Part shown: piece after piece, positions 21,001 through 26,388 of the stretch | Layout: each line of letters begins with the position of its first letter | Numbering within the stretch: the stretch's first letter is position 1 | Source of the DNA: Thiomicrorhabdus indica | Lineage (GTDB): Bacteria > Pseudomonadota > Gammaproteobacteria > Thiomicrospirales > Thiomicrospiraceae | Length of the DNA stretch: 64,000 nt | Direction of reading: 5' to 3' | NCBI RefSeq assembly: GCF_004293625.1 | Contig: NZ_CP033040.1 | Coordinates: 992,001-1,056,000, forward strand | Position numbers and translations under genes: made by a program | The notes under the pieces: generated by a model | Database searches by the model: none | What the model saw: only the letters and a program-made list of their open reading frames with translations | What the model was told of the DNA's origin: nothing

Positions 21001-21172
21001 TTAATCTTCCTCATTCACTGATTTAGACTTTTTTGAAAAAGCCATAAAAATTGGATGCGTGATTATAGCTAAATTTTTCTTTTAGTAAAAACTTTCCATA
21101 AAAATGCTTTATTATCCGTTGGCAAAAAGATAAACAGACAGACAGAAAATAATTGTGAATTGGGGTTCGGTC

Positions 21173-22234
21173 ATGGCGACAGAAGTTTTCGGAGATGTGG
21201 AGAGTTTTGAGCAGATTTTTGAAGCGTTAACTGTAGAAGAGTTAGACCGTCTACGCCGTCGTTTCGGTCGTTTGCAGGCCTATGAAGTGGTGCCAAAGTT
21301 GTTTGAGGACAGTACGCATCACATTTTTAAGTTATTTTTTTCTGATACCCCCGTTCCCTTGATTTGCAAGCTGTGTGTTCCAATGGCTCTTCAAGAAAAC
21401 TTTTCGGATGAGCCTGAAAATTCTCTGTCGCCAAGTATCATTTTTTGGTCTCGTATTCGCCAGCTATTTGATTTTAATGCTTGTCAAAGTTTAAAAAACG
21501 CGCAGATTCATTATCAATGGATGCAAAAACATACAACATTTCATATTGCCAAGCTTTATGGAGTAGCCACATCTACTGAGCCTTTCGAGTGTGGTTTTTT
21601 ATTGCAAGAGTTTATTGAAGGGATTAATTGTCACCGTTCATATTACACTCAAGAGCGTGCTAGAAAATTAGCCGATCATTTAATGGCTATGCATCAACAT
21701 CATTTTCAACGTTTTGGCGTTCTAGCAGAGGTCTTTCAGCAAACAACTGATTCACAGGATTCTGAAAGACTTAAGGCAGAATCCACAGAGTTGTGGTGGA
21801 CAAACATTGCAAAAGTGATCGAAACCATACCGGCCGGTAAAGTTCTTGCGACGGAGAAAACAGAAGCGTTGGTGACGATAGAAGCTCTTAAAACCAAAAG
21901 AGTGGATTTTGTTCCACAGCTTGTGGATTTTCGTTGGGATCAGATTCGTTCAGGTTTGCCGTCCACTGAAATATCTAAAAGTGATGTTGGACAGTGTTAT
22001 TTGTTAGATTTAGATGCTTTGGTGATTGCGCCACTTGAATTTGAATGGGTGATGTTGGAGTTGGTTTTAACTCAAGAGGATATGGAATATCTCATTTATC
22101 ACTATCACCAAGGGATTAAAATACCGTTAATTCATGACCACCGGCTTGTTTATCGAATGGTGTTTTTCGCTATGAACCTATTAGGGGAAATGTCTTGGGA
22201 AGAGTTTAAACAGCAACCCAAGTTGTTAAATTAA
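21173..22234 (+). CDS. Aminoglycoside-phosphotransferase-like kinase-fold protein
   Basis: 353 residues from ATG 21173 (a GTG at 21155 is an alternative with weaker ribosome binding signal). The middle has FLLQEFIEGINCHRSYYTQERARKLADHLMAMHQ, which looks like the hinge and helices of APH/choline-kinase-type enzymes. Late in the protein VDFRWDQIR and YLLDLDAL take the places of the catalytic loop and the metal-binding D-x-D segment, but the canonical HGDLHxxN is not present, so it may be a pseudokinase. Substrate unknown. Its stop overlaps the convergent pnuC-type gene by four bases. Confidence 0.55.
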   Translation: MATEVFGDVESFEQIFEALTVEELDRLRRRFGRLQAYEVVPKLFEDSTHHIFKLFFSDTPVPLICKLCVPMALQENFSDEPENSLSPSIIFWSRIRQLFDFNACQSLKNAQIHYQWMQKHTTFHIAKLYGVATSTEPFECGFLLQEFIEGINCHRSYYTQERARKLADHLMAMHQHHFQRFGVLAEVFQQTTDSQDSERLKAESTELWWTNIAKVIETIPAGKVLATEKTEALVTIEALKTKRVDFVPQLVDFRWDQIRSGLPSTEISKSDVGQCYLLDLDALVIAPLEFEWVMLELVLTQEDMEYLIYHYHQGIKIPLIHDHRLVYRMVFFAMNLLGEMSWEEFKQQPKLLN

Positions 22235-22860
22235 TGTTTCGAATGCGCTTTCGCGTAAGTCTTTTTCCATGCTATATAACCATAGGCTGCAAGTACCAAA
22301 TAAAGCATAAACATAATCATTGTTGGATAGTAGCCATTTTGCCAATAAAGAATAATTGACGCGCTTTCAACGAACAGCCAGTAAAGCCAGTTTTCCAGAA
22401 TTTTTTTAACCATCAAATAGGTGGTCATGACTGAGAAAACCATTACGCCGGCATCTAAAAAAGGTGCCACACTCCATTTTTCAATATGCATCCAAGTTCC
22501 CAACATAAAACTTAAAATGGCACCTGTTGCAGTAAAGCCTAAATGAAATTTTAAGGGTTTTTTAGAAATTTCAAGCGGTTCTTCGAAGTCTTGAGCGCCA
22601 TGCCGGCCTTTTTTCCATTGTTGCCAACCATAGAGAGCCATGATGAGGTAATAGAGGTTGAGTAGTGATTGCAATGGAAGTTGCCCATGCCAAAAGAGAA
22701 GTGTGTAAATTAATGTGCTAATAAATGCAGAGGGCCATGCCCAAGGGTTTTCTCTCGCAGCAAGCACGACATAACCAATTCCGAAAAGGGCGGCCAGCCA
22801 TTCCCAAGGTGATTGAGCTGCAAAGCCGGCTAAACCCTCGTTAATTATGGTTTCAATCAC
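22231..22860 (-). CDS. pnuT: PnuC-family transporter, probable thiamine transporter PnuT
   Basis: 209 residues from GTG 22860 (a TTG at 22896 would add 12 residues). Seven or so membrane helices with PnuC marks: SPWEWLAALFGIGYVVLAARENPWAWP, LLNLYYLIMALYGWQQWKKG and a late FMLYLVLAAYGYIAWKK. PnuC takes up nicotinamide riboside; members under TPP-riboswitch control are assigned to thiamine (PnuT). Here the upstream operon carries a TPP riboswitch, two YkoF-like proteins and a TonB receptor, so thiamine is the best guess. Its start overlaps the upstream gene by eight bases. Confidence 0.85.
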   Translation of the reverse strand: MIETIINEGLAGFAAQSPWEWLAALFGIGYVVLAARENPWAWPSAFISTLIYTLLFWHGQLPLQSLLNLYYLIMALYGWQQWKKGRHGAQDFEEPLEISKKPLKFHLGFTATGAILSFMLGTWMHIEKWSVAPFLDAGVMVFSVMTTYLMVKKILENWLYWLFVESASIILYWQNGYYPTMIMFMLYLVLAAYGYIAWKKTYAKAHSKH

Positions 22861-23122
22861 AGTGATCAACCTTAGCTTTATTGCGATCGATTCCAATCAG
22901 CTTAATCACAAACACTGTTTCGGGGATTAGTTCTAATACGTTGTGTATCTCTTGGTTTAAGCAAGTCATGACATCGGCATAATCACCATAAATATGTGTG
23001 CTCATGGAGTTCTCTTGAACACTGACTGATGGATGTGTTTTTAAGGTATTAATAAAATCAATAATCGGTTGGCAATACTCTTCATTGAGAGGATACATAC
23101 TGATGTCAACTGAGACTTTCAT
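22853..23122 (-). CDS. YkoF-like thiamine/HMP-binding domain protein (copy 2)
   Basis: 89 residues, one ferredoxin-like domain: VSVDISMYPLNEEYCQPIIDFINTLK, a short central NSMSTHIYGDY, then VLELIPETVFVIKLIG. It resembles the single domains of YkoF and MTH1187-type thiamine-binding proteins. It probably binds thiamine or its HMP moiety in the cytoplasm, perhaps as a carrier for the transporter next to it. It starts 2 bp after the methyltransferase stop with GGAG upstream and overlaps pnuT by eight bases. It is a close paralog of the gene at 23793. Confidence 0.8.
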   Translation of the reverse strand: MKVSVDISMYPLNEEYCQPIIDFINTLKTHPSVSVQENSMSTHIYGDYADVMTCLNQEIHNVLELIPETVFVIKLIGIDRNKAKVDHCD

Positions 23123-23124
23123 CG

Positions 23125-23751
23125 TTAAATTTTCTCCGCATATATGACGACAAATAAGCCTTGGTCATGGCCGTCTAATATATTATTTGGTTGTTGGGAA
23201 TGGGTTTCTGGAAGGACGGTTTGCACACTTTTAAAATTGCCAAATCCGGCTTGAGTCAAAAAGTCGGTGATTTCAGCGTAAGTGTAGAAGGTGGCATCAC
23301 AATAAAATGGACTTTCGTTTTTGTGTGTTTGGTAAATTTGACCCAGTTCTGATTCGCGTTCTAAATAGGCGACTAAAATTTTACCCGTGGCGTGAGTCAC
23401 TCTGTGTGCTTCTTGGTATGCCTTGACAGGGTTGTCCAAAAAGCAAGTTGAAGTGACAAAGATTGCAAAATCAAATTGGTCATCTTTGAGAGGCAAATTT
23501 TCTGCTGTGCCTTCAATAATGTTTAAACCTTGCGCCAGTGATTTTTCACGCATGGCTTTGGCAGGCTCAATACCTGTATGGATATTGAGAGGTTTGGTAA
23601 AACGGCCACTGCCGGCACCGATTTCCACACCTTTGCCGGCCGGCAAAAGTTTTTTAATCGCGGCGATTTCGGCAGCATAGAGTTCTGCATTTTCTTCAAA
23701 CCACTGGTCATACATATCCGCATGTGACTCATAGCCTTGAGTTTTAGGCAT
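23125..23751 (-). CDS. Class I SAM-dependent methyltransferase in the thiamine operon
   Basis: 208 residues. Motif I is GVEIGAGSGRF (about 40-50), followed by IIEGTAENLPLKDDQFDFAIFVTSTCFLDNP (motifs II-III) as in UbiE/COQ5-type small-molecule methyltransferases. The substrate is unknown; no methylation step belongs to standard thiamine synthesis. It lies between two YkoF-like genes in a TPP-riboswitch operon, which suggests it acts on a thiamine precursor, breakdown product or analogue. It carries a variant palindrome at 23636 coding for Pro-Ala-Gly. Confidence 0.8.
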   Translation of the reverse strand: MPKTQGYESHADMYDQWFEENAELYAAEIAAIKKLLPAGKGVEIGAGSGRFTKPLNIHTGIEPAKAMREKSLAQGLNIIEGTAENLPLKDDQFDFAIFVTSTCFLDNPVKAYQEAHRVTHATGKILVAYLERESELGQIYQTHKNESPFYCDATFYTYAEITDFLTQAGFGNFKSVQTVLPETHSQQPNNILDGHDQGLFVVIYAEKI

Positions 23752-23792
23752 GATCGTTCCTCACTATTTTTACTTTATTTTTGGCATTCATA

Positions 23793-24044
23793 TTAGTTCT
23801 CTGTATGGCAACCGCCTGAGATTTTGAGCACAAACACGCTTTCTGGTATGTTTTCCAAATGGTTTTCAAAGGCTGTTTCTAGTAAAGGCATGATGACAGA
23901 GTATTCTCCAAAAAGAGTCGTACTCATTGAGTTGTAGGTCAGCTCGATTTCTGACCGGCCGGTTAAATGATCAATAAATTCAAAAATTGGCTGCCGGTAG
24001 GCTTTTTTTAATGGGTATAAGCTTATATCTACTGTGACGTTCAT
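23793..24044 (-). CDS. YkoF-like thiamine/HMP-binding domain protein (copy 1)
   Basis: 83 residues from ATG 24044, which has GGAG five bases upstream; the frame stays open to 24098 but that start lies in a hairpin. The sequence NVTVDISLYPLKKAYRQPIFEFIDHL and NSMSTTLFGEYSVIMP is clearly paralogous to the gene at 22853. One ferredoxin-like domain, presumably dimerising with itself or with the other copy to make a YkoF-like two-domain unit. Carries an exact palindrome (23954). Confidence 0.8.
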   Translation of the reverse strand: MNVTVDISLYPLKKAYRQPIFEFIDHLTGRSEIELTYNSMSTTLFGEYSVIMPLLETAFENHLENIPESVFVLKISGGCHTEN

Positions 24045-24058
24045 CAGAGCTCCAAAAT

Positions 24059-24082
24059 AAAAGAGGCTCTTCGGAGCCTCTT
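24059..24082 (-). terminator. Intra-operon hairpin terminator
   Basis: AAAGAGGCTC-TTCG-GAGCCTCTTT with TTTTATTTT following on the minus strand. It lies between the TonB receptor gene and the first YkoF-like gene, so expression of the downstream genes may be reduced relative to the receptor. Confidence 0.75.
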
Positions 24083-24099
24083 TCTGTTGATCGTGCAAA

Positions 24100-26193
24100 T
24101 TAGAAATAGATGCGAGCGGTTACGCCGATTTGACGAGGGTCACCTAAACGAACGTACTGTTGTTCGCCATCACCATCGAAGTGGTCAAATTGGAAACCGC
24201 GGGTTGCGTAAGTCTCATCGGTGATGTTTTTCCCCCATAGATAGACTTCGTAGTTTTCTTGTTCATAACCAATTCTTGCGTTGACTAAAGTGTAAGAATC
24301 AGACTTAAAGTCATGAACATTGTCGAAATAAAAAGCATCCATGCCGGTGATGTCGGCCATCAAATAAAGTCCGGATGCACTACGATATTTTGCGCCAAAG
24401 TTGTATTGGTAAGAGGGGGCGTGAGCATATTCTCTGTCATCCAATGTAAAGTTTGCAAAAGTCGGCGTTCCTGAAATGTCGGTTTTCATGACCGATACGG
24501 CACCAAATAGATTCCAAGTGGTATTTACGCGCCAATCAAATTCAGCTTCTAAACCATAGGCGTTTGCGGATTCAAAGTTTTCTGTGAAGTACACCCAGTG
24601 TGCATAGCTTGATTCATATCCGTAGCCATCAAATTGTGGGTTTTTACGGTCCATGTAAAACAGGTTTGTAGAGGTTTTTAAGTTACCGTCTAAGTAGTTG
24701 GATTTCAAACCGATTTCATAGTTATAGAGTGTTTCAGAGTCATAGGCTCCGCTCTCAATGCTTGATTCTGTCAGGTTGGTATTGAAACCGCCCATTTTAT
24801 AGCCGCGCGTTACCCCTGTAAAAGCCGTATGTTTTTGATTGTATTTATATGAGTAGATGATTGAACCCCCCCAGAGGTTTTCAGTGGGGGAACTCGATTC
24901 AGGGTTTGAGTAATCGTAAGCACCTCCGCCATAAGAGGTATCAAAACCACTTAGCTGAGTATTTAAGTCGAAATCTTTCCAATTTCGTTCTAAGCGTGCA
25001 GAAAGCGCAACGGTTGCTTTTTCACTAAATGCCAAGTCGTATTGCCCGTAAATAGAGGCTTTTTTCAGCACGTAATCACTATTTGCATCGGTTTGATAGT
25101 TATCTCCCCAGCTTGGGTAGTCATACCGTTCATACCGTGTATTTTTCTCATCCATTTTTGAGAAATAAGCACCAATCAGCCAGTTTTTGTCAATGACTCG
25201 AATGTCTTGGCTAAAGTTTTGGCGGTCTTGTTGATTATCAAATAAACCTCGGTAAGTTGTATCATCCGCTTTCCAATCCGTGTCGTAGGCATACCGAAGT
25301 TCATTGTCAGAAAAAGAGGTAATACTTTGTAAAGTTCGATTGCTATTGAGTTGATGTGTCACTTTTGCAGAAAAAGCGTTTGAAAGTAATGTGTCTTGAC
25401 CAGGCTCATTAGATAGGTTGGTAAAAGAGTTATCTCTTGACCATGCATCATAACCATTGTCTAAATCGGCATGCAAAAGTGTGACATCAACCGTTGTGTC
25501 ATCACTAGGAAAGAAGCGCAGCTTTGCTCTTGCGGTTAATTCATCGCGACCATTTGTATCTGAACGGTTGAGTGTTTTATTGTCTCGGAAGCCGTCGCTG
25601 TCGTGTTTAAATATTGCAATGCGGTACTGTGGCGATTTTTCAGCTGACGAAAAGGGACCTGAAGTCATAATTCCGAGTTCTGTCAGGCTATCTTGCCCAG
25701 CCGTCGCCTCAATCATGGATTCGCGATATTCGGTAGGCTCATTGCTTTTGACATTAATGAGCCCAGCAATGGCACTTTGACCATAACGAGTGTTTTGAGG
25801 GCCGCGTAATACTTCAATTTGTTGAATGTCAAATGTGCTGGCCGCCATTCCAATGCCGCTATAGTCAATGTCGTCAATGGCAAATCCAACGCTCGAATTG
25901 GGTGCTCCTGTATATTCATCTCGCTCCCCTATGCCTCGAATTTGAATATGACGAGCTCGAGACGATTGACCTGAATAATTCACATTTGGGGTTTTTAAAA
26001 GCACATCGTCAAAGTGACTAGCACCTTCGTCTTGAAGTTCTTTCTGCGTTTTTACCGATATGCTTGTCGGCATTTCTTGTTCATTGGTTCCTCGAAGATC
26101 CGCGTTAATGTTAATGGTTTTTAATTCAGTCGCGAATGCTGGTTGGCTCATTAAAATAATGGCCAAAGAAAGCGGCTTTAGTTGAGTTTTCAT
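24100..26193 (-). CDS. TonB-dependent outer-membrane receptor, probable thiamine receptor
   Basis: 697 residues from ATG 26193 (MKTQLKPLSLAIILMSQPAFA signal peptide); an ATG at 26238 is in frame but sits beside a palindrome without a ribosome binding site. The plug domain has PTSISVKTQKELQDEGA and QQIEVLRGPQNTRYGQSAIAGLINVKS, and the chain ends VTARIYF with a terminal Phe, as in TonB-dependent barrels. It would import a scarce nutrient across the outer membrane using TonB. The TPP riboswitch directly upstream points to thiamine (a type of receptor described as OMR1 in comparative work). Confidence 0.9.
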   Translation of the reverse strand: MKTQLKPLSLAIILMSQPAFATELKTININADLRGTNEQEMPTSISVKTQKELQDEGASHFDDVLLKTPNVNYSGQSSRARHIQIRGIGERDEYTGAPNSSVGFAIDDIDYSGIGMAASTFDIQQIEVLRGPQNTRYGQSAIAGLINVKSNEPTEYRESMIEATAGQDSLTELGIMTSGPFSSAEKSPQYRIAIFKHDSDGFRDNKTLNRSDTNGRDELTARAKLRFFPSDDTTVDVTLLHADLDNGYDAWSRDNSFTNLSNEPGQDTLLSNAFSAKVTHQLNSNRTLQSITSFSDNELRYAYDTDWKADDTTYRGLFDNQQDRQNFSQDIRVIDKNWLIGAYFSKMDEKNTRYERYDYPSWGDNYQTDANSDYVLKKASIYGQYDLAFSEKATVALSARLERNWKDFDLNTQLSGFDTSYGGGAYDYSNPESSSPTENLWGGSIIYSYKYNQKHTAFTGVTRGYKMGGFNTNLTESSIESGAYDSETLYNYEIGLKSNYLDGNLKTSTNLFYMDRKNPQFDGYGYESSYAHWVYFTENFESANAYGLEAEFDWRVNTTWNLFGAVSVMKTDISGTPTFANFTLDDREYAHAPSYQYNFGAKYRSASGLYLMADITGMDAFYFDNVHDFKSDSYTLVNARIGYEQENYEVYLWGKNITDETYATRGFQFDHFDGDGEQQYVRLGDPRQIGVTARIYF

Positions 26194-26238
26194 AGTCAAT
26201 TTTCCCCATTGGAAATAGGGCAAGAGAGAGGAGTTCAT

Positions 26239-26266
26239 TGTTTATTTACCGGCCGGTAAATAAACA
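26239..26266. repeat. 28-bp perfect palindrome between riboswitch and receptor gene
   Basis: TGTTTATTTACCGG plus its exact reverse complement, built around the iterated 10-mer at 26248. It lies just downstream of the TPP aptamer and ends one base before the upstream in-frame ATG (26238). Its 14-bp hairpin could be part of the expression platform. Confidence 0.85.
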
Positions 26267-26278
26267 TATTGTGTTTTT

Positions 26279-26388
26279 TTCCTTCCCTACGCCAGTATTA
26301 TCTGGATCAGGTAATAAGGGTTTTTCGAAACATTTCGAATTCTCAGGCTCAAAACACATGGTTTTGATGGCCTCCCCTAGGTTAGCTG
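26279..26388 (-). promoter_or_regulatory. TPP riboswitch (THI element)
   Basis: Read on the minus strand, the conserved parts occur in order: CTAGGGGAGGCC, then GCCTGAGA, an extra hairpin (TTCGAAATGTTTCGAA), ACCCTT, ACCTGATC, CAGATAATACTGGCGTAGGG. These are the hallmark blocks of the thiamine pyrophosphate aptamer. It lies upstream of the receptor gene and should shut the operon down when TPP is abundant. AAACATATT (5' side, 26390-26398) and AATATGTTT (3' side, 26262-26270) pair around the aptamer. Confidence 0.95.

Follow-up and report, generated by a model that had tools for sequence, protein, structure and literature searches.

Thiamine metabolism is considered to be well charted, and a methyltransferase should not be needed in an operon for thiamine uptake. 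Why, then, does such an operon in the sulfur bacterium Thiomicrorhabdus indica carry one? The gene lies in the window analysed here, a stretch of 64,000 nucleotides from contig NZ_CP033040.1, among the following features.

21155..22234, plus strand: convergent APH-fold kinase, likely a thiamine kinase trapping imported thiamine (weak Pfam APH match)
22231..22896, minus strand: PnuT-type (PnuC family) inner-membrane protein, putative thiamine facilitator (NMN_transporter, 162.9 bits, E = 9.7e-48; TPP-riboswitch context)
22853..23122, minus strand: YkoF-like copy 2 (YkoB; Pfam Ykof, 23.6 bits, cut-off 21)
23125..23751, minus strand: class I SAM-dependent methyltransferase (MT), TM1293/1vlm family (Pfam Methyltransf_11, 55 bits, cut-off 21.2)
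23793..24044, minus strand: YkoF-like copy 1 (YkoA), single domain, C-terminal SGGCH (weak Thiamine_BP/Ykof matches)
24054..24084, minus strand: terminator-like hairpin with U-rich tail, directly 3' of the receptor gene (RNA fold)
24100..26193, minus strand, ORF open to 26238: TonB-dependent outer-membrane receptor, OMR1/OMthi-like (Pfam Plug and TonB_dep_Rec barrel)
26267..26388, minus strand: TPP riboswitch aptamer, THI element (Rfam RF00059)

A conserved operon for thiamine uptake

An earlier, sequence-only reading had described a TPP aptamer followed on the minus strand by a receptor, YkoF-like copy 1, the MT, YkoF-like copy 2 and a PnuC-type transporter. Rfam, Pfam and synteny confirmed this layout. 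The aptamer scored 67.7 bits (gathering threshold 54.3, E = 3.7e-11 in the window) and recurs at the corresponding position in relatives, and the order from riboswitch and receptor through to PnuT is kept in the 14 relatives for which both flanks are sequenced. Because synteny is kept in this way, chance can be ruled out for the layout. With its aptamer placed ahead of the genes for a TonB receptor and a transporter of the PnuC family, the locus belongs to the receptor-plus-PnuT type of TPP-riboswitch uptake operon. Thiamine transport by its products is suggested by the genetics of PnuT and OMthi in Bacteroides thetaiotaomicron (PMC5613172) and by carriers of the MT that lack ThiE.

The receptor ORF has a signal-peptide-like start at M16, placing the probable true start at 26193. 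The hairpin behind the gene folds with -16.8 kcal/mol (centroid) and a z-score of -2.6, and comparable hairpins follow the receptor in most relatives. This terminator-like structure may attenuate riboswitch control of everything behind the receptor, so the proposal that the aptamer controls all five genes does not hold securely past that point.

The APH-fold kinase is conserved at the locus in relatives and forms part of the neighbourhood. Its profile matched those of ThiK-like kinases encoded 3' of pnuT in other families (probability 92, E = 5e-7). The window kinase itself gave no match to the NCBIfam equivalog model ThiK (TIGR02721), and the in-operon kinases of other families scored 48-90 bits against this model, whose cut-off is 299.

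An accessory methyltransferase and its YkoF partner

The MT belongs to the TM1293 family, as judged by a full-length match in sequence and fold and by its class I SAM motifs. It shares 42% identity with Thermotoga maritima TM1293 (PDB 1vlm; E = 1.4e-51) over the full length, and its AlphaFold model (pLDDT 92.7) superimposed on 1vlm with Z = 33.6 and an rmsd of 1.5 over 203 residues. The modelled fold is that of a generic class I methyltransferase and names no substrate. Structural genomics labelled TM1293 a 'possible histamine N-methyltransferase', a function that is not established; the literature searched describes neither a function nor a thiamine link for this protein, and none of the family members found has an established substrate. 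The family extends across many phyla of bacteria and archaea.

Within the genus the MT is 60-70% identical with intact SAM motifs, compared with 33-57% for the receptor, about 50% for PnuT and about 25% for the kinase. Absence from orthologous operons had been named beforehand as an outcome that would speak against a role in thiamine metabolism. The result was divided: about half of the orthologous operons of the genus lack the MT and the rest contain it, and in one pair of sister genomes one has the MT while the other does not. The MT is thus an accessory gene and not a required salvage step. Its presence does not follow the type of receptor, as both receptor types were found with and without it.

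Copy 2 is the YkoF gene found in all orthologous operons. Copy 1 remains below the Pfam cut-off (16.8 and 19.9), yet it is homologous to copy 2 and forms a single clade, in which a cysteine near the C-terminus is invariant (13/13). Of 16 operons with the MT, 13 contain copy 1, against none of 13 that lack the MT (p = 1e-5, uncorrected for relatedness); some gammaproteobacterial operons have the MT without copy 1.

Recurrence in thiamine operons of other lineages

Relatives of the MT stand in unrelated thiamine operons of other phyla, which bears out the tie between MT and thiamine that had been drawn from this one locus. Among 17 Bipolaricaulota loci, 15 have the MT beside a thiamine ABC transporter, where it follows the transporter genes; 13 show the full order TPK-ThiX-ThiY-ThiZ-MT, and a TPP riboswitch was detected at 12. 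Two Coprothermobacterota genomes have the order MT-thiD-thiM-thiE. In four Desulfobacterota cases the MT follows thiC or abuts thi genes, the layouts being thiC-MT, a thiD gene convergent with the MT, and an MT with an adjacent TPP riboswitch. Another gammaproteobacterial family (locus L127) has a receptor-MT-YkoF-PnuT operon whose MT comes from a different lineage; a single origin of the operon was rejected for this case, as its MT falls in another supported clade.

As a control, 103 other MT loci (1.12 Mb) were inspected and thi genes were found in eight. In seven of these a thi cluster or its riboswitch directly adjoins the MT or lies in one operon with it, and in one the distance is 5 kb; about 95 of the 103 have no adjoining thiamine genes. 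Clustering the neighbours of remote MT homologues, before targeted thi queries, had revealed no common context, and among the Desulfobacterota neighbours the only standout was a lineage-specific J-domain-like gene. The TM1293 family is linked to thiamine across at least three phyla besides that of the host. Outside three clades most members lie away from thi genes, so that a general substrate is conceivable for the family.

None of the 17 MT-bearing Bipolaricaulota genomes encodes a ThiE scoring over the family cut-off, and Thiomicrospira WB1 has neither a ThiE over the cut-off nor a ThiC. In genomes without a recognised ThiE the MT is therefore not a step of thiamine assembly, and a role in assembling thiamine from HMP and thiazole was rejected for these carriers.

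Comparison with known systems

The Bacteroidetes OMthi/OMR1-PnuT-Tnr3 system, whose role in uptake was shown genetically in B. thetaiotaomicron (PMC5613172), shares TPP riboswitch, TonB receptor and PnuT with the Thiomicrorhabdus operon. In Bacteroidetes the pyrophosphokinase Tnr3 makes TPP, whereas here a separate APH-fold kinase and ThiL would do so, and neither methyltransferase nor YkoF has been reported for the Bacteroidetes system. The YkoF domain, a binder of the HMP moiety of thiamine (PMC5627462), is common to our operon and the HMP/thiamine transporter YkoFEDC of Bacillus subtilis; the latter is of ABC type, whereas here YkoF is a single-domain protein, present in one or two copies, alongside PnuT. 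A SAM methyltransferase under a TPP riboswitch is also found in the bacimethrin/thiaminase I operons of Clostridium botulinum and Paenibacillus (PMC5627462).

The sequence-only reading had stated that no methylation belongs to known thiamine salvage, and the literature searched agrees with it: only in antivitamin synthesis was a methyltransferase acting on thiamine or its vitamers found there, and the search returned no report of thiamine methylation and, among work on methyltransferases of TPP regulons, nothing on this MT. The main text of a TPP-regulon survey mentions no methyltransferase.

Proposed function and alternative explanations

We propose that a TPP-riboswitch uptake operon, consisting of receptor, a thiamine/HMP-binding YkoF and PnuT, would have received an accessory module of a TM1293-family MT and, in most carriers, a second YkoF. 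The MT would most likely act on a small molecule, thiamine-like or derived from thiamine, that is taken up along with the vitamin or arises from it after import. Candidates are an antivitamin, thiamine that has been oxidised or whose ring has opened, and a pyrimidine or thiazole fragment left by cleavage. The methyl cap would probably dispose of a molecule that is unusable or poisons TPP enzymes, and the second YkoF would bind the ligand of the MT or hand it over. We hold this reading tentatively, at a little below even chances. It builds on the observed anatomy, conservation, repeated operon association and retention without a recognised ThiE, from which we infer a thiamine-like substrate, methylation as a means of disposal or detoxification, and the part played by the second YkoF. 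Against this reading weigh the generic fold, the many family members away from thi genes and the congeners that live without the MT; moreover, antivitamin exposure is not documented for these bacteria, and no compound can be deduced from the MT sequence. The substrate suggested earlier, an analogue or a degradation product of thiamine, remains our best guess; a required salvage step is not upheld, as the MT is accessory, and in carriers without ThiE the MT would not feed thiamine assembly.

The MT might nevertheless turn an imported precursor or damaged thiamine into usable thiamine, as its place in uptake operons beside transporters and kinases, and next to thiD-thiM-thiE in Coprothermobacterota, would allow. 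We consider this unlikely. Thiamine import takes place without the MT in about half of the congeners, and where ThiE is missing, rescue would be limited to a thiamine skeleton that is still whole. No natural breakdown product of thiamine is known to lack one of its methyl groups. That the MT acts on an unrelated housekeeping substrate, and owes its place in the operon to chance or to regulation alone, is in keeping with its generic fold and with the many family members away from thi genes. A single chance insertion would not recur in four phyla with differing thiamine hardware, however, and the link between MT and YkoF copy 1 also argues against a passenger, so that we give this explanation a minor, though appreciable, chance.

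Synthesis of a useful methylated thiamine derivative, either a modified cofactor or an antivitamin against competitors, has a precedent in the methyltransferase of the bacimethrin/thiaminase operons of paenibacilli (PMC5627462), and antivitamins do act in nature (PMC12345177). By gene content, however, the partners of bacimethrin synthesis (thymidylate-synthase-like, glycosyltransferase and thiaminase I genes) are missing from the operons inspected gene by gene, and wasting thiamine suits expression during thiamine shortage badly; this alternative appears distinctly improbable. Least probable is a regulatory or maturation role in which the target of the MT is a protein or RNA belonging to the uptake machinery. 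Copy 1, with its invariant cysteine and its co-occurrence with the MT, would be one possible target, but no YkoF gene was seen in the MT-holding operons of Bipolaricaulota and Coprothermobacterota, some gammaproteobacterial operons dispense with copy 1, and the compact 208-residue MT, as modelled, resembles small-molecule methyltransferases.

Implications

The recurrence of the MT in thiamine operons across phyla suggests that vitamin B1 metabolism includes a methylation not yet described. Its extension to a new branch, in which TM1293-family enzymes S-, N- or O-methylate thiamine or a derivative and so dispose widely of antivitamins or damaged vitamin, is possible, though less likely than not. 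One can speculate that thiols arising from thiamine under sulfidic conditions are S-methylated; this form would fit because the MT is frequent in sulfate reducers, sulfur oxidisers and other anaerobes and because of the invariant YkoF cysteine. The release of natural thiamine analogues into waters has by now been documented (PMC12345177). A conserved MT within the uptake operons of bacteria unable to make thiamine from its parts would imply either that the vitamin has a fate not yet described or that such analogues are warded off; if true, this would also provide a lead to the function of the solved structure 1vlm and of its wide bacterial and archaeal family.

Operon organisation and identity of the methyltransferase

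The complete host genome (2.83 Mb) belongs to the Thiomicrospira/Thiomicrorhabdus group. Behind a TPP aptamer, its minus strand carries the genes of a TonB-dependent receptor, a YkoF-like protein (YkoF-1), a class I SAM-dependent methyltransferase (MT), a second YkoF-like protein (YkoF-2) and a PnuC/PnuT-family transporter. A kinase gene converges on this operon:

26388-26267, minus: TPP aptamer, 67.7 bits
24054-24084, minus: terminator-like hairpin with U-rich tail, between the receptor gene and YkoF-1
23125-23751, minus: MT
21155-22234, plus: APH-fold kinase gene, fast-evolving (only about 25% conserved), its position retained

Aptamer score and gene order bear out the sequence-only reading of a TPP-riboswitch operon with an MT between two YkoF-like genes. 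Spacing is short, with 41 nt from YkoF-1 to the MT, 2 nt from there to YkoF-2 and an overlap of YkoF-2 with pnuT. The claimed riboswitch control of the whole operon agrees with the upstream aptamer, but for the genes behind the receptor it is only plausible, as the hairpin follows the receptor gene. This hairpin, mostly GGGCTC..GAGCCC followed by a T-run, is common to most relatives, MT-bearing or MT-lacking, so that the receptor is probably produced in excess.

The solved structure nearest to the MT is 1vlm (TM1293 of Thermotoga maritima; phmmer E 1.4e-51). Superposition of an AlphaFold model of the MT (42 homologues used; pLDDT 92.7, pTM 0.90) with 1vlm gave Z 33.6 and rmsd 1.5 over 203 residues with 42% identity. 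TT1324 (2gs9; Z 25) came next, and scores then levelled off at Z 18-20 among class I methyltransferases, including ones that act on small molecules. As far as the literature found shows, the 1vlm label 'possible histamine N-methyltransferase' is a depositor's guess.

Conservation among relatives

When 58 related genomes were searched at the protein level, strong homologues of the MT turned up in 14 further genomes of the same genus, the window's own not counted, and in a single genome from another genus of the family. Among the 14, G023 has a Desulfobacter-type MT that lies apart from the operon, on a small MAG contig. A Thiomicrorhabdus MAG (loci L037/L050) holds a TM1293-family gene of Desulfobacter type with DsrE-like and persulfide-dioxygenase-like genes nearby; it is part of no thiamine operon, and its contig is short and may be foreign.

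All 14 loci with flanking sequence keep the order receptor-(YkoF-1)-MT-YkoF-2-PnuT with the convergent APH kinase; YkoF-1 is missing in one of them (L024) and in the other-genus locus. The Thiomicrorhabdus operons lie between thrS/HDOD and pcm/cytochrome genes. A TPP aptamer was detected upstream in 13 of the 14 with Rfam and in the last, L033, by genome search. The MT is the most conserved operon protein, with 60-70% identity within the genus compared to 33-57% for the receptor, whose type is independent of MT presence in related operons. Occurrence of the MT in orthologous operons holds for the 14 flanked loci but not for 13 riboswitch loci of MT-lacking relatives, whose version of this operon has a single YkoF and lacks the MT, most at the same place. 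Mapped on a PCMT+PnuT+YkoF-2 tree, MT presence requires about five changes, at least three of them forced by well supported branches, which argues that the MT is an accessory gene repeatedly gained or lost.

YkoF-1 was found solely in operons with MT (13/16 MT-bearing versus 0/13 MT-lacking; p 1e-5, ignoring relatedness). Its sequences form one clade (support 91/92), and all of them (13/13) share a Cys close to the C-terminus.

The MT family in other thiamine loci

Remote homologues were gathered from named genomes, Gammaproteobacteria, Bipolaricaulota, Desulfobacterota and Coprothermobacterota. Widened beyond the window, the observation holds: the MT family recurs in thiamine operons of other lineages. 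Locus L127, from another gammaproteobacterial family, reads TPP riboswitch-receptor-MT-YkoF-PnuT; its MT groups with Desulfobacteraceae sequences in a different, supported clade and joined the window clade in no bootstrap tree. In Bipolaricaulota, 15 of 17 loci have the MT behind a ThiXYZ-type ABC transporter (TPK-ThiX-ThiY-ThiZ-MT complete in 13, two cut by contig ends), with a TPP aptamer detected in 12; the TPK of L090 was confirmed by NCBIfam (152 bits, cut-off 76). Two Coprothermobacterota genomes show MT-thiD-thiM-thiE. Among Desulfobacterota, a thiC-MT arrangement in L267 is accompanied by thiD and a TPP aptamer, the MT is convergent to thiD/thiE/tenA in L271 and L279, and it adjoins a TPP aptamer and thiD/thiC in L292. 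A small J-domain-like protein gene adjoins eight Desulfobacterota homologues (L265, L268, L269, L270, L272, L273, L276, L290). In the gammaproteobacterial genome G181 (L183, 7014-7274, minus; L182, 4156-7281), a TM1293-family MT is divergent from riboswitch-thiC-thiO-thiG; a riboswitch-receptor-YkoF-PnuT operon is also present, as is another YkoF gene standing alone at a different site. The operon type is already known, and the MT module is new in such operons.

Most family members, archaeal ones included, are not next to thi genes. The control comprised 103 MT loci (1.12 Mb) that belong neither to the window clade nor to the Bipolaricaulota operons; eight contained thi genes. In seven of these, the thi cluster or its riboswitch is adjacent to the MT or in one operon with it; in the eighth the distance is 5 kb. 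Against about 0.7 TPP aptamers expected in the 1.3 Mb scanned, from the density in related genomes, 16 non-duplicate sites were seen (deliberately fetched ones left out), 12 of them in Bipolaricaulota operons. By parsimony, a tree with 134 family members shows about eight changes of thiamine context, only two of them forced by strongly supported branches, so this context may have arisen an uncertain number of times or may be an ancestral linkage mostly lost.

Proposed function

The window APH-fold kinase falls below the ThiK equivalog cut-off and was therefore not filed as ThiK. Four loci of other lineages within the Gammaproteobacteria (L185, L187, L188, L189) have, downstream of pnuT and on its strand, an APH-fold kinase gene distantly similar to ThiK. 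It lies behind a TPP riboswitch wherever the contig reaches that far, and these kinases match the family profile of the window kinase (prob 92, E 5e-7). The window gene probably encodes a thiamine kinase converting imported thiamine to TMP, which ThiL would convert to TPP.

Thiomicrospira WB1 has ThiL and neither ThiC nor ThiE above cut-off. ThiE was likewise above cut-off in none of the 17 MT-bearing Bipolaricaulota genomes (MAGs, the absence being systematic; best 27 bits versus 145), which have TPK in the MT operon. Judged by gene content, both depend on ready-made thiamine. A roughly 318-residue open frame, possibly a Nudix-ThiE-like fusion with its ThiE-like part below the ThiE cut-off, occurs at G000:C1:940275-940802 and in ThiE-less Thiomicrospira WB1 (G036:C3:144025-144546).

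As the MT is kept both in carriers without ThiE and in the window's genome, which has ThiC, ThiE and ThiL, a thiamine-assembly step is ruled out. Candidate substrates would be thiamine and its phosphates, damaged thiamine (the disulfide or ring-opened, oxidised or cleaved forms) and imported analogues. Thiamine itself is disfavoured, because spending SAM on it during import makes no sense; we therefore prefer disposal or detoxification, substrate and direction being what we infer. The additional YkoF protein of MT-bearing operons might serve as a ligand-binding partner. Natural antivitamins and growth-inhibiting oxidised thiamine forms are documented in waters (PMC12345177). The MT belongs to a family of known structure whose genes have repeatedly been incorporated into operons for thiamine uptake and synthesis.
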